A DNA stretch of 64,000 bases, from positions 1 through 64,000 of the forward strand of contig QIBA01000057.1 of the NCBI GenBank assembly GCA_003225175.1, given 5' to 3'. The notes under the pieces were generated by a model, which was not told the origin of the DNA, did no database searches, and was given only the letters and a program-made list of their open reading frames with translations. The translations under genes and the position numbers were made by a program. Every line of letters starts with the position of its first letter. The stretch's first letter is position 1. This stretch comes from Acidobacteriota bacterium. Its GTDB lineage: Bacteria; Acidobacteriota; Terriglobia; Terriglobales; Acidobacteriaceae. This document shows positions 41,364-50,002 of the stretch, in pieces.

Positions 41364-41707
41364 GTCGGTCCGCAGTCCAACGGCCTCTCCGTAGTTTGGT
41401 TGCAATCATTGCGGCAGATCGTTCACAACACATAGACTGGCCGACCTCAGCCTCTTCCGCCAAGCTAGACGAATAAAAAGCAAAAGTAAAGTGGAAATTG
41501 GAGTGGGAAGCCCACTTGAGCGCGACTGAATCCTCCTCGAATATTTATTCCTTGCTGACTGTCCGAATGCGAACAGCGCGTTCCGCCTTTGGAGCCGAAG
41601 CTGCCCCTCTGGCCCGTCACTTCCCGCCAAGTCTCTGAGCCCGAAGCACGTCACCGGCGCGCAAAACGGCCGCACTAATGCACCCATGGATTCTCAAAGG
41701 GCGAATC
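41364..41707. other. Non-coding stretch upstream of the second ADOP permease
   Basis: No gene, hairpin or known motif was recognised here. It likely holds the promoter of the permease gene; an AAAGGG ribosome binding site lies directly before the start at 41708. Confidence 0.45.
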
Positions 41708-44143
41708 ATGAACACTTGGATCCAAGACCTCCGCTACGGCGCCCGCCTCCTGCGCAAGACGCCGGCGTTCACCATTGTGGCGGTGGTCACGCTTTCCGTT
41801 GGGATAGGGGCGAACACGGCGATATTCAGCATTGTGGATGCGGTCCTCTTGCAGCCTCTGGCGATACGGCAGCCCCAGAGGGTGATGCTGCTTCAGGAAG
41901 CTTGGCAGGGAAGAGAGGGAGGCGGAGTTTCCCGCGGCAACTTTCTCGACATTCATGACCAGAACACGACATTCTCCAGCGTCTCAGCCTCGGCCAGCGG
42001 CGCATATAACTTGGCTACGGAAGATGCTCCGGAGCGGATCAACGGCGAAAACGTTTCCGCCGAGTACTTCAGCACCTTTGGAATCGCTCCTCTGCATGGC
42101 CGCGTGTTCTCCGAAGCCGAAGATAGTCCAGGCCATGAGAAGGTCGCGGTAATCAGCGAGAGACTTTGGCGCGCTCGCTTCCATCAAGATCTATCGCTGA
42201 TCGGGAAGCCAATTCGCGTAAACGGCCTTTTGCTCGTGGTGCTCGGGGTCATGCCGGCGAGCTTCGACCCGCTGCTGAGTAAATCGGATATCTGGTTGCC
42301 ATTCGCTTTCACTGCGCAGCAGCGTTCCGATTATGACAATCACTTTCTCAATGTCTTTGCTCGATTGAAGGAAGGTGTATCGCGGCAACGCGCTCAGGCG
42401 GAGTTGGCCATTCTGGCGGCGCGAGAAGCGCAGGATCACCCGATTGACAACAAAGATCGCGGCTTCAGCCTCATGCCTTTGACCGACGTTCTTTTGGGAG
42501 ACCAGCGCGTAACGCTGTTTACAGTTTTGGGAGCTGTAGCCTTTGTCCTCCTGATCGCTTGCGCCAACATCGCCAATTTGCAATTGGCGCGAGCACGCGC
42601 CCGGCAAAAGGAAGTGGCAGTTCGAGTCGCTTTGGGCGCGACTCCGCTGCGGATCGTCCTGCAACTTCTGGCAGAAAACTTCGTGCTCGCCGGAGTCAGT
42701 GCCATATTGGGAATCATGCTTGCGAACGGCGGCGTTCGCTGGCTCATTGCACACGCTCCCGGCGGGGTTCCACGGATTGAAGAGGCGCGCGTGGATTTTA
42801 CGGCGCTGCTCTTTGCCTGCGGCATCGCGGTGCTGTCGAGCGTCGCCTTTGGCATGGCTCCCGCCTTGCGCTCCACGGCCGTGCGATTGACCGAGACCTT
42901 CCACCAGAGCTTCTCCCTCTCAACTTCCAGCCGTGACCGCGTCCGCAGTGCACTGGTAGCAGGCGAAGTTGCGCTCGCACTCATGTTGCTGGCGGGCGCG
43001 GGCCTGCTGGTTCGCAGCGCGCTCTTGCTGGCAAAAGTTGAACCCGGCTTCGATACCGCGAATTTGATTGTCGGACGCGTGGGGCTGCCGGAGCGCGGCT
43101 ACAGCAGTCCGTTAATTGCGCGACAGACGTTTGAGAGCATTGTCACCAAAGCGCAGGACCTGCCCGGTGTGAGCTCGGCTGCGGTAGTCTCGCGCGCGCC
43201 GCTGGCCGGTGGTGGAAACAGTAATGGGCTGCTCGTAGAAGGCAGACCTTTCGATCCCTCGAATGTGGTCGATGCAGCGCTGCGCGTCGTCTCGCCTGAT
43301 TATCTGAAGACCGCCCGAGTTCCGCTCAAAATGGGCCGCGGATTCATCCCGGAAGATACTCGCGAGCGTCCGCTGGTTGTGGTTGTGAACGAGACGCTCG
43401 CGCGAACCATGTGGCCCAACCAGAATCCCATCGGCAAGCGCTTCGCCTGCTGCGAGAGCGGTCCCAAAGGACGTCTCGATCCCGTGTGGCATGAAGTCGT
43501 CGGTATCGTCGGTGATGTGCGGGCCTGGGGATTGGATCGTCAGATTCGTCCCGAATTCTATATGCCGATCGCACAAATGCCTTCCGACGCATGGGATTGG
43601 ATCGGAAGAACCATGGACATCGTGGTGCGCACCAAGGGTTCGGTGATCGCGGTAAGCGAGTTGCGTTCAGTGGTCTCACAAGTCGCGCCCGGCGTCCCCA
43701 TCTACGGCGTTTCCACCATGCAGCAGAAGGTTTCCAGCCAGCTGGAGCAGTCCCATTTTGATACCTTCCTCTTGAGCATCTTTGCCGCCACCGCTCTGGT
43801 GCTGGCCGCAGTAGGAATTTATGGCGTGCTCTCCTACACCGTAGTGCAGCGCACGAAAGACATTGGCGTACGCATGGCGTTAGGCGCGAGCCGATCCAAT
43901 ATCACTCGCGATGTGCTAGGACATGGAGCGCTACTAACAGGCATTGGCGTAGCAAGTGGCCTGGGGGGCGCCGTTATTGGTGCCCGCCTGATCCGCAGCA
44001 TCCTCTACGGAGTGCGGCCCACAGATGTGACCACGTTCCTCGTAGTATCGGCAGTGCTGGCGGCAGTAGCGCTCATTGCAAGCTATCTACCGGCGCGCCG
44101 CGCCAGTCGGGTGGATCCAATGATCGCACTCAGGTACGAGTAA
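41708..44143 (+). CDS. ADOP-type ABC transporter permease (second copy)
   Basis: An 811-residue permease built like the one at 9980-12508: TWIQDLRYGARLLRKTPAFT, helix 1 with GIGANTAIF, periplasmic core, FtsX-type helices, a second core and a final helix set, ending SRVDPMIALRYE. No ATPase gene is adjacent. The ATG at 41708 is preferred over 41678 because the family begins exactly here and AAAGGG precedes it. Substrate unknown; drug, lipid or peptide extrusion is only a family analogy. Confidence 0.9.
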   Translation: MNTWIQDLRYGARLLRKTPAFTIVAVVTLSVGIGANTAIFSIVDAVLLQPLAIRQPQRVMLLQEAWQGREGGGVSRGNFLDIHDQNTTFSSVSASASGAYNLATEDAPERINGENVSAEYFSTFGIAPLHGRVFSEAEDSPGHEKVAVISERLWRARFHQDLSLIGKPIRVNGLLLVVLGVMPASFDPLLSKSDIWLPFAFTAQQRSDYDNHFLNVFARLKEGVSRQRAQAELAILAAREAQDHPIDNKDRGFSLMPLTDVLLGDQRVTLFTVLGAVAFVLLIACANIANLQLARARARQKEVAVRVALGATPLRIVLQLLAENFVLAGVSAILGIMLANGGVRWLIAHAPGGVPRIEEARVDFTALLFACGIAVLSSVAFGMAPALRSTAVRLTETFHQSFSLSTSSRDRVRSALVAGEVALALMLLAGAGLLVRSALLLAKVEPGFDTANLIVGRVGLPERGYSSPLIARQTFESIVTKAQDLPGVSSAAVVSRAPLAGGGNSNGLLVEGRPFDPSNVVDAALRVVSPDYLKTARVPLKMGRGFIPEDTRERPLVVVVNETLARTMWPNQNPIGKRFACCESGPKGRLDPVWHEVVGIVGDVRAWGLDRQIRPEFYMPIAQMPSDAWDWIGRTMDIVVRTKGSVIAVSELRSVVSQVAPGVPIYGVSTMQQKVSSQLEQSHFDTFLLSIFAATALVLAAVGIYGVLSYTVVQRTKDIGVRMALGASRSNITRDVLGHGALLTGIGVASGLGGAVIGARLIRSILYGVRPTDVTTFLVVSAVLAAVALIASYLPARRASRVDPMIALRYE

Positions 44144-46320: not shown

Positions 46321-48006
46321 GTGGTTTGTACCGCAGTCGCTTTCGGGACATTCGAATTTGATCCGCGCACGGGTGAACTGCGCAAGCGAGGGATCAAGCT
46401 AGGGCTTCAGCCGAAGTCCGCTGCGGTTCTGTCTGTGCTGGTGCGCCATCCCCACGAACTAGTTACGCGCGAGCACCTGAGAATAGAAGTGTGGGGACTC
46501 GAAACCTTCGTCGATTTCGAAAATGGACTCGGCAATGCCATCTGGAAGCTGCGCCAACACCTCGGCGACAAAGCAGACAATCCGCTTTTTATAGAGAGCA
46601 TACCGGGGAAGGGCTATCGCTTCATCGCAGACGTACACCCGGTAATTCCAAATCCGAACTCAAGAAAGGTGATTGCGATTCGCCCGTTTGAAGATTTGGA
46701 TAACAGACAGTCGGATGATTATTTTGTCGCGGGGCTTACTGAAGAGTTAATTACACAACTGGGACGGCTGAATCCGAAGCGCCTTGCGGTGGTGGCATTG
46801 CGTAATAAGTCGCTGGAGGAGATCCCTGGTGAGCTCGCAGCCCAATATTATGTTGTAACCGGAGCTGCGCGCCGTGATGGCACCCGGCTGCGTGTGACGG
46901 CACATCTGCTCGAAGCAGCAGATCAACGTCAGATCTGGGCCGGCAGCTACGATCGTCCGACAACCGATGTGATTGCCGTGCAGATAGAGCTGGCAGAACA
47001 AATCGCCAAGTCGCTCATGGTAGAGCTGTTGCCAGTAAAGAAGGAGCATGGCCGGATTCAGTGGACCGAAAGTCTGGTTGCCTATGAGTTATATCTCCAA
47101 GGCCGGTATCACTGGAACAAGCGCGTGCCCAAATCCACCTTCACTGCGATTGAGTATTTTCAAAGAGCGATAGCCGCCGATCCTGAGTACGCGCTAGCAC
47201 ATGTGGGGCTCGCGGACTGCTTTGGCGTGCTTGGCTTTTACGGTGAGCTTGCGCCCGCAGATGCTTTTGGCAGAGCGAAGCAACATGCGTCGAGGGCTCT
47301 GGCTCTGGACGACTGCCTGGCCGAGGCTCACAGCTGTCTGGCTTTCTGTCTCCTGCAGTTCGACTGGGATTGGAACGCCGCGCAACACGAACACCTCCAG
47401 GCCATACAGCTGAATTCGAACTGCGCTCCCGCCCACCACTGGTACGGCCTGACCTTGACCGAAACGGGCCGATTTTCCGATGCGCTGCGATCACTGATTC
47501 GTGCGAAGGAGTTAGACCCATTCAACCCGGCCATTCAGGCCCATATCGGTCGGCTTGCCTACTTCTGCCGCGACTTCGAGCGCTCTCTGAAAGAAGTTGA
47601 ACGCGCCGTTGAACTTGATCGCAGCTACGTTCCTGGCCGCTACTTTCAGGCGATTGCGATGGTTCAGAAGGGGAACGGCGGAGATGCAATCAATCAATTT
47701 GAGGGACTCGTGACCGAGTTTTACGAACATCCGATCCTGGTGAGCGGCTTGGCTTACGCCTATGGAAAAGGAGGAAAGCGCGCCGCGGCATTGAAAGCTA
47801 TTGACCGGTTACAGGCGTTAGCGCGCAAGATTCGCGTGCCACCATATTTCCTGGCGTTCGCTCACGCTGGGGTCGAAAATTCCGTCGCTGCCCTGGACTA
47901 TCTGGATCGGGCCAAAGTTGAACGCTTTGCATGGCTGCACTACCTGAAGATGGACCCGGTCTTCGATTTTCTGCGCTCGAATGCCAGATTTGACGAACTG
48001 ATGTAA
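46321..48006 (+). CDS. Winged-helix (OmpR/CadC-type) TPR regulatory protein
   Basis: A 561-residue protein. An OmpR-type winged helix (about 8-103, with VTREHLR and GKGYRF) is followed by a FlgO/TolB-like domain (about 118-230) and at least six TPR units (about 245-555). No transmembrane helix is seen, unlike CadC. Acidobacteria carry many such proteins. The GTG start follows AGGGAG. It is divergent from the patatin-methyltransferase pair and may regulate it; a decayed mazF follows its stop. Confidence 0.85.
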   Translation: MVCTAVAFGTFEFDPRTGELRKRGIKLGLQPKSAAVLSVLVRHPHELVTREHLRIEVWGLETFVDFENGLGNAIWKLRQHLGDKADNPLFIESIPGKGYRFIADVHPVIPNPNSRKVIAIRPFEDLDNRQSDDYFVAGLTEELITQLGRLNPKRLAVVALRNKSLEEIPGELAAQYYVVTGAARRDGTRLRVTAHLLEAADQRQIWAGSYDRPTTDVIAVQIELAEQIAKSLMVELLPVKKEHGRIQWTESLVAYELYLQGRYHWNKRVPKSTFTAIEYFQRAIAADPEYALAHVGLADCFGVLGFYGELAPADAFGRAKQHASRALALDDCLAEAHSCLAFCLLQFDWDWNAAQHEHLQAIQLNSNCAPAHHWYGLTLTETGRFSDALRSLIRAKELDPFNPAIQAHIGRLAYFCRDFERSLKEVERAVELDRSYVPGRYFQAIAMVQKGNGGDAINQFEGLVTEFYEHPILVSGLAYAYGKGGKRAAALKAIDRLQALARKIRVPPYFLAFAHAGVENSVAALDYLDRAKVERFAWLHYLKMDPVFDFLRSNARFDELM

Positions 48007-48012
48007 CCATAA

Positions 48013-48332
48013 GAAGGTGTTTGCTGCTGGATGACGGCCAAGCCTGGCTGAGATGCCAAGCAGTTTCGTGGTCTCGTCGCTATAAGCCGGCAAGCGCTAA
48101 TCTCCTCGAAATTCTCGACAGTAATTCGTGTCCCGGTGTTCAGCAGCGGCGAAGCTCTGGCTACGCAGGTGGAAGTAGGATCGGATGAGGGGCTTAAGCA
48201 TCCGAGGTGGATCATGTGTGACAACCTGGTGAGTCTTCGCAAATTGGACCTCACCCAGGACGTCGGATCATTGTCTCCGGCGAAGATGGCAAGGTAAATT
48301 CGGCACTGAGTATCGCTCTGGATTCGCAATAG
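48013..48332 (+). pseudogene. Decayed MazF/PemK-type toxin gene
   Basis: In one frame, residues such as AKQFRGLVAISRQAL, STVIRVPVFSSGEALATQVE, DEGLKHPRW, CDNLVSL and VGSLSPAKM match the central and C-terminal part of MazF/PemK endoribonucleases. An in-frame TGA (48049-48051) interrupts the N-terminal part, and a frameshift near 48291 moves the remaining tail (NSALSIALDSQ) to another frame, ending at 48332. The antitoxin gene is missing. It is a relic of a toxin-antitoxin pair and fills most of the 359-bp gap between the wHTH-TPR and ECF42 genes. Confidence 0.8.
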
Positions 48333-48358
48333 CTACGTCATCGATTCAGCAACTGCAC

Positions 48359-48378
48359 CCGCCCGCTACTGCGGGCGG
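48359..48378 (-). repeat. Hairpin repeat at the end of the ECF42 gene
   Basis: CCGCCCGC (48359-48366), loop TACT, GCGGGCGG (48371-48378): a perfect 8-bp stem. On the minus strand the loop region holds the TAG stop codon of the sigma factor (CGCAGTAGCGGG). The same element with compensatory changes is found at 50219-50240. Confidence 0.75.
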
Positions 48379-49622
48379 TTCTGTACTTCGGCCAGACGGC
48401 GGCGAAGATATTGTTGTTCCACCTTGTTCGTTGCTAATTCCAGGGACTTGCTGTAGGCGGAGGCAGACTCTTTCTTGCGTCCTATTCTGCGCAGGATGTC
48501 GGCTCGGGCGGCGTGGTAGAGGTAATAGCGGTCTAGCTGGCCGGAAGCCCCGATCTGCTCGATGTGCTTCAGACCCTCTGCCAGGCCGGAGCTCATGGCG
48601 ATTGCTACTGCGTGATTGAGCGCGATTACGGGTGAGGCGTTGAGCTCCAGCAATTTTTCGTAGAGAGCGGCGATCTGCTGCCAGTCGGTCTCGGATGCGG
48701 TTTTGGCTTCGCCGTGCAGGGCTGCGATTGCGGCCTGGATCTGATACGGACCAGGCGGTCCTCGTCTCACTGCTTGTTCAATAAGCGCGAGTCCTTCGGA
48801 AATCTTGGTCTGGTCCCAGAGCGTGCGATCTTGTTCCTCGAGCGTTATCAACTCGCCGTTATGAATGCGGGCGGCGCGGCGTGAATCGTGCAGCAGCATG
48901 AGGGCTAGCAGGGCTACGTTTTCTGATTCATGGGGCATCAAGTCGCGCAGTACGCGGCCTAAACGGATGGCCTCGGCGCAGAGATCGGTGCGTACGAGTT
49001 GATCGCCGGCGGTGGCGACGTAGCCTTCGTTGAAGATTAAGTAGACAACGGTTTGTACTGACGCGAGGCGTTCAGGCAGGCGCTCCGGAGGCGGAACTTC
49101 GTAGGGAATGTGGGCTTCCTGGATCTTGCGTTTGGCGCGCACGAGGCGCTGCGCGAGTGTCGGTTCGGGAAGGAGAAAGGCTTTGGCGATTTCAGGAGTG
49201 CTGAGGCCGCCGAGCGTTCTGAGCGTGAGGGCAACCTGTCCTTCCTGATTAAGCGCAGGGTGGCAGCAGGTAAAGATCAGGCGCAGCCGGTCGTCGGGTA
49301 AATGCATGGCGGTCTCGAGTTCTGGTTCGGTGGCAGGGCGGAATGCTTCAATTTCATAGCGGACAGAATCCTCCTTTTCCCGCTGAGTTCGTTCCCGCCG
49401 TCCCTGGTCGATCAGCTTGCGCTGGGCAGTGGTCATGAGCCAGGCGGCTGGATTCGTGGGAATTCCGGTTTTCGGCCACGTCGCCAGTGCGGAGGTGAAG
49501 GCTTCCTGCAGTGCGTCTTCGGCGCGGTCGAACGATCCGGCGAGGCGGATCAATGTGGCGATAATTCGGCCCGACTCCTCGCGGAAGACGGACTCGGCAG
49601 CCGCCTGGGAATTCCTTGTCAA
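48366..49622 (-). CDS. ECF42-type sigma factor with C-terminal TPR extension
   Basis: A 418-residue sigma factor of the ECF42 group: sigma region 2 (about 15-80, EDALQEAFTSALATW), region 4 (about 115-175, LSTPEIAKAFLLPEPTLAQRL), then a long helical TPR-like extension (about 180-415). In this group the extension replaces an anti-sigma factor. The TTG start overlaps the stop of the upstream DGPF gene (TTGA) and places the sigma domain at the N-terminus; a longer frame to 49727 would overlap the partner by about 100 bases. Confidence 0.85.
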   Translation of the reverse strand: MTRNSQAAAESVFREESGRIIATLIRLAGSFDRAEDALQEAFTSALATWPKTGIPTNPAAWLMTTAQRKLIDQGRRERTQREKEDSVRYEIEAFRPATEPELETAMHLPDDRLRLIFTCCHPALNQEGQVALTLRTLGGLSTPEIAKAFLLPEPTLAQRLVRAKRKIQEAHIPYEVPPPERLPERLASVQTVVYLIFNEGYVATAGDQLVRTDLCAEAIRLGRVLRDLMPHESENVALLALMLLHDSRRAARIHNGELITLEEQDRTLWDQTKISEGLALIEQAVRRGPPGPYQIQAAIAALHGEAKTASETDWQQIAALYEKLLELNASPVIALNHAVAIAMSSGLAEGLKHIEQIGASGQLDRYYLYHAARADILRRIGRKKESASAYSKSLELATNKVEQQYLRRRLAEVQNRPQ

Positions 49623-50002
49623 TGGTGCGCAGCCTGCACCATCAGGTGCGCAGGCTGCTCCAGCAGCGGACGAATCTCGATGCATCCTTCGGCTCCTCCG
49701 CATCCAGTCGGGATCTTCTTGGCCCATTCGATAGCTTCGTCCAGGTCCTTGCAGTTGAGGATGTAGTAGCCGGCGAGCTGCTCTTTGGTTTCCGCGAATG
49801 GGCCATCTAGAACGATCGATTTGCCGTTTTGCGGCCGGATCGTCGTGGCAGTAGTTGCTGGCCGGAGTGGCTCGGCTCCTTCAAGGATGCCCTTTGCCGT
49901 AGCCTCCGCCATTACCCGGCGGTGGCCCTCCGCGATCTGCTGCATGGATTCCGGATAGGCCGGAGCCTGCTCCCTGGAATAAACGAGCAACATGTAGCGC
50001 AT
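49619..50002 (-). CDS. DGPF-domain (YCII-related) protein
   Basis: A 127-residue YCII-fold protein of the DGPF family, with MRYMLLVY at the start and LDGPFAETKEQLAGYY in the centre. DGPF genes are the conserved partners of ECF42 sigma factors; their product is thought to be a target or modulator, with no known biochemical activity. The ATG follows a GGGAGGGG tract. It is coupled to the sigma gene by a 4-bp overlap. Confidence 0.9.
   Translation of the reverse strand: MRYMLLVYSREQAPAYPESMQQIAEGHRRVMAEATAKGILEGAEPLRPATTATTIRPQNGKSIVLDGPFAETKEQLAGYYILNCKDLDEAIEWAKKIPTGCGGAEGCIEIRPLLEQPAHLMVQAAHH

Follow-up and report, generated by a model that had tools for sequence, protein, structure and literature searches.

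A mazF relic and an antitoxin fragment at the same edge of a sigma factor gene suggest the probable loss of an ancestral toxin-antitoxin pair in two sister genomes of Acidobacteriaceae

How did part of a toxin gene come to lie, without its antitoxin, between a regulator gene and a sigma factor gene? The question arises in the window, the 64,000-nucleotide stretch of an Acidobacteriaceae draft genome (contig QIBA01000057.1) that we analysed. The left neighbour (46321-48006, + strand) encodes a winged-helix (Trans_reg_C) and TPR regulator, whose protein is 98% identical in the sister genome G004. The right neighbour (48366-49727, - strand), which is convergent, encodes an ECF-type sigma factor with DUF6596, 94% identical in G004 and 84% in G001, a genome of the same genus. 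A sequence-only reading had proposed a relic mazF toxin gene between the two. In scans of the window, no Rfam family exceeded the gathering score and no tRNA gene was found, which leaves nothing to mark an insertion site.

The identification as mazF is borne out by profile searches. PF02452 (MazF/PemK) matches 48043-48294 on the + strand, across one TGA, with an E-value of 5.2e-7 and 32.1 bits (cut-off 23.1) in a search of the whole genome, and the stop-free piece 48052-48294 exceeds the same cut-off by itself (E 2.4e-7, 31.4 bits). A 107-position MazF family profile (A2), which includes the relic itself and was used for the boundary at 48034 only and not for an E-value, extends the main frame to 48034-48294 (+), where most of a MazF/PemK toxin is encoded (profile positions 9-95). 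When the piece 48052-48294 was compared with the stop-free frames of 99 other genomes, 17 of them gave matches (weakest E 7.5e-4); the closest is an intact gene in G001, with 72% identity (E 2.2e-32), whose protein matches PF02452 at E 1.2e-14. By profile, the nearest solved structures are MazF3 (5uct, 5cca; 2.6e-9 against A2), MazF6 and EndoA/YdcE (EndoA, 1.2e-5 against A2), from M. tuberculosis and Bacillus. The window copy differs from the MazF/PemK family in lacking a start codon, the first eight or so codons, the C-terminal frame and the partner gene; it exceeds the curated PF02452 cut-off and has no complete open frame with a start codon. Neither the G001 toxin nor the relic piece had an NCBIfam match, and PADLOC returned nothing for these two or for the G001 antitoxin. 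Two weak PF02452 places elsewhere in the same genome (C104, E 0.196; C30, E 0.542) were rejected as further MazF copies, since the family-specific profile finds the relic alone at E<=1. A scan with one genome per GTDB species yielded 21 mazF loci, 20 in Acidobacteriota and one in Treponema, at least one of which is the same place as a locus from the 99-genome search. Among the matches listed for literature on toxin-antitoxin decay, Acidobacteria MazF and orphan toxins, the locus is absent from titles and abstract openings.

The main frame contains two stops, a TGA at 48049-48051 (+), where aligned relatives have a sense codon, and a TAA at 48295, adjoining a frame change near 48294. The C-terminal helix continues from there in another frame (48294-48332, +) as VNSALSIALDSQ followed by a stop, corresponding to LNRALKMALDL in relatives. 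One TGA and one late frameshift were thus rightly described in the sequence-only reading, and a third lesion went unseen: the start codon and about eight first codons of mazF are absent, because 48007-48031 belongs to the regulator flank, as its match in G004 reveals. The 5' edge of the relic must accordingly be moved from the proposed 48013 to 48034, where MazF homology begins, and 48007-48033 (+) assigned to the regulator 3' flank, homologous to G004 contig C172 up to about 48031. Nor would correction of the TGA and the frameshift restore an intact gene, as had been supposed, because the 5' end of the toxin and the antitoxin are also missing. A functional toxin is no longer to be expected from the relic, nor is RNA cleavage activity.

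The extent of decay was compared with that of intact genes. Within the 78 codons compared, 28 positions do not vary among 22 intact sequences, and the relic is changed at 4 of them; for each intact gene the figure is 0 or 1 of 28-29. When changes at the first two codon positions are divided by those at the third, the mean is 0.336 for the relic (sd 0.043, 22 comparisons) and 0.278 for intact genes (sd 0.058, 197 similarly diverged pairs); the difference is modest, and the pairs are not independent. No other terminal branch is as long as that of the relic (0.42 vs a median of 0.11) in a tree of 23 rows, which does not resolve the relic's nearest relative. This pattern fits a recent release from selection, and the decay can be called recent, as first proposed, on the scale of the family.

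In its relatives, the toxin gene has a partner. A gene for a ribbon-helix-helix (RHH) antitoxin of about 77 residues (MKEKTSITLS...) lies directly upstream of mazF, at a gap of -4 to 69 nt, in 30 of 34 loci, a partly redundant set whose independent number is smaller (L008 coincides with L030, and L025 is nearly identical to L038). The pattern search found no antitoxin at the other four (L014, L015, L016 and L042); two loci, L041 and L042, are cut short or end early, and the four weakest matches of the 99-genome search (L018-L021) were left out of closer study. The antitoxin profile (A1) matches CopG (4.2e-5) and antitoxin Rv0298 (3.5e-4), and NCBIfam gives the G001 antitoxin only a MazE match below the cut-off. 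RHH antitoxins are known partners of MazF (Table 2 of PMC2701414). The relatives resemble such type II pairs in gene content and order; the difference is that the window holds part of the toxin gene only, and G004 part of the antitoxin gene only. No antitoxin was detected by profile A1 at E<=0.1 in the relic's own genome, which is 98.92% complete, and the regulator gene stops at 48006, so the description of the toxin as lacking its antitoxin stands. Inspection of close relatives for the intact pair, proposed earlier as a check, gave a divided answer: G001 has an intact pair on contig C105, but the sigma factor junction of G004 has only an antitoxin scrap and no mazF.

In most of the locus pairs listed, DNA homology extends only over the two genes and the roughly 16-20 bp that precede the antitoxin, and the antitoxin-mazF unit occurs in many different surroundings. 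The RHH-MazF unit is compact and, among the genomes searched, comes mostly from Acidobacteriota. A 17-bp element with the majority sequence GGTAGTATAATGGTAGT adjoins the antitoxin ATG in 26 aligned loci (e.g. L074:7259-7275), some of them near-duplicates, and its positions -16, -15 and -11 are identical in 26/26. This candidate promoter/operator looks like a putative -10 region plus an operator with GTAGT direct repeats; if it is a -10 region, it would suggest a leaderless antitoxin transcript. Faint mazF-like or antitoxin-like stretches were also noted in G002 (C64) and G005 (C38, C35).

Comparison with G004 locates the breakpoints on both sides of the relic. On the left, the 94% match between C172 and the window ends at 48031, 25 bp beyond the regulator stop; C172 then diverges over its remaining 272 bp, in which there is no mazF. 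The regulator-mazF junction of the window is at about 48032-48036. The heptamer AAGCCTG is shared near this junction, may be there by chance and was not counted as evidence. On the right, the sigma factor 3' flank is the same in the window and in G004 contig C85 up to 48335 (shared flank 48335-48365), after which C85 continues into the first 22 or so codons of the antitoxin. This antitoxin trace (C85:2244-2357, - strand; E 1.5e-7 with profile A1; one TGA inside) has the same reading direction as the relic and is preceded by a diverged form of the antitoxin upstream element; at the DNA level, it is homologous to an intact locus over some 21-22 codons plus the 17 bp preceding the start. The sister genome thus has, at the same junction, the antitoxin trace to be expected of an ancestral RHH-MazF pair. 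The mazF profile finds nothing at E<=1 in G004 (about 88% complete). On the far side of the scrap lies an amino-acid permease gene that has no match at E<=1e-20 in the genome of the window; a copy in G001, 75% identical, is on a different contig from the G001 sigma factor gene. More than the toxin-antitoxin pair was hence gained or lost on one side.

The best explanation, to which we give a probability of roughly 0.8, is that the relic is the degraded toxin gene of a two-gene antitoxin-mazF unit, an ancestral pair beside the sigma factor gene that the two sisters lost through different deletions. The homology, the lesions, the junctions and the sister's fragment are shown directly; that there was such a pair, that deletions broke it and in what order, we infer. 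The common ancestor of the window genome and G004 would have carried an intact antitoxin-mazF pair just 3' of the sigma factor gene. In the lineage of the window, a deletion would have run from just past the regulator stop codon into the first codons of the toxin and eliminated the antitoxin and its upstream element along with the start of the toxin, and the TGA and the frameshift would then have built up without selection. In G004, a separate deletion would have taken the whole toxin and the greater part of the antitoxin. Intact MazF is toxic to a cell that lacks the antitoxin, and this would account for the joint loss of antitoxin and toxin start. An ancestral pair is the simplest account because what survives in the two species are different parts of the same kind of pair, abutting a common edge. 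Several points count against it: the G004 gene order comes from two contigs, the amino-acid permease differs between the genomes, the tree does not place the relic, the codon-position ratio is only modestly raised, and other sigma factor loci in the family, including those of G001 and G003, have no trace of the pair. The same scraps could also stem from two separate insertions of related pairs next to the sigma factor gene, given that the unit is found in many different surroundings, that the genus has a second locus and that G001 and G003 have no trace of it beside the sigma factor gene; both scraps, however, adjoin the same right-hand flank within a few bases, and we hold this origin to be unlikely. 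If the deletions did occur as proposed, an otherwise ordinary toxin pseudogene would represent a fairly well resolved loss, with two sister genomes, two different breakages and one place.

Other accounts place the fault in the data or deny the loss of function. A mis-join in the assembly, with an intact pair lying elsewhere or lost in assembly, could have created the regulator-mazF junction, and the place is indeed not bridged in G004, where C172 ends 272 bp beyond the shared flank. We consider this quite improbable, as the own genome has neither a second mazF-profile match at E<=1 nor an antitoxin-profile match at E<=0.1, and its FtsX permease and sigma factor neighbours are syntenic with those of G001, where the two genes are about 0.64 kb apart. 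The possibility that the gene is intact and that its TGA and frameshift are sequencing errors, to be entertained in a draft genome of 268 contigs, is slimmer still: the start codon, about eight codons and the antitoxin are also missing, 48007-48031 is regulator flank in G004, and 4 of 28 otherwise invariant residues are changed. Sequencing error alone was rejected on account of the absent 5' end and antitoxin. We give hardly any credence to a recoded, working solitary toxin, or to a function of the relic's RNA or of the 129-aa open frame antisense to it (47940-48329, - strand). Myxococcus does have a solitary MazF that serves a different role (PMC2701414), but the relic has lost its 5' end, has no start codon and shows excess changes at invariant sites.

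A second locus in the genus is informative about how such pairs are lost. It is intact on G001 C105; the syntenic place on G004 C164 has kept a decayed antitoxin and has no mazF, and the same place on C39 of the window genome measures about 305 bp instead of 1.37 kb, with no toxin-antitoxin match in that stretch. In the three losses that leave a trace (the window, G004 C85 and G004 C164), the toxin is missing entirely or lacks its start, and in none does an intact toxin stand alone, although a rule cannot be drawn from three cases. We tentatively suggest that sisters may keep different pieces because such a pair can be lost only via deletions that take the toxin start or the whole toxin, an idea we regard as possible rather than probable. 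If it is true, reciprocal scraps at a shared edge could serve to count and date toxin-antitoxin losses.

The earlier proposal that this junction accepts mobile genes is partly supported. The content beside the sigma factor gene does differ among the four genomes of the genus that were compared (that of the window, G001, G003 and G004). From the FtsX permease gene to the sigma factor gene, the window carries a patatin gene, the TPR regulator and the mazF relic; G004, whose order was pieced from two contigs (C172, C85) with an unseen gap, has a TacA-GNAT pair, the patatin-TPR block, the amino-acid permease and the antitoxin scrap; in G001 a PDDEXK_3 gene between inverted repeats stands there, and in G003 the sequence beyond the sigma factor gene is different again. 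On the other hand, no integrase or transposase was found among the ORFs scanned with Pfam, and the evidence rather favours loss of an ancestral pair. Neither G001 and G003 beside their sigma factor genes nor 26 sigma homologue loci (L103-L128; 51-66% identical) from 23 other genomes of the family, in stored flanks of about 1.5 kb save for one locus cut by its contig, have a toxin-antitoxin trace.

Several smaller features of this region were noted. The PDDEXK_3 gene of G001, presumably of the GxxExxY type, lies by the sigma factor gene at L072:7215-7775 (C22), flanked by inverted repeats of 45 bp (93% alike). The TacA antitoxin and GNAT toxin genes of G004 (L096:4440-5270, C172) are situated between the FtsX permease gene and a partial second copy of its 3' end (49 bp aligned), where the permease gene of the window continues straight into the next block. 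The FtsX/MacB permease gene of the window (41678-44143) has 72% DNA identity to its G004 counterpart vs 94% for the adjacent block, and the G004 gene is closer to that of G001 (79%), which possibly reflects a swap of tandem paralogues.
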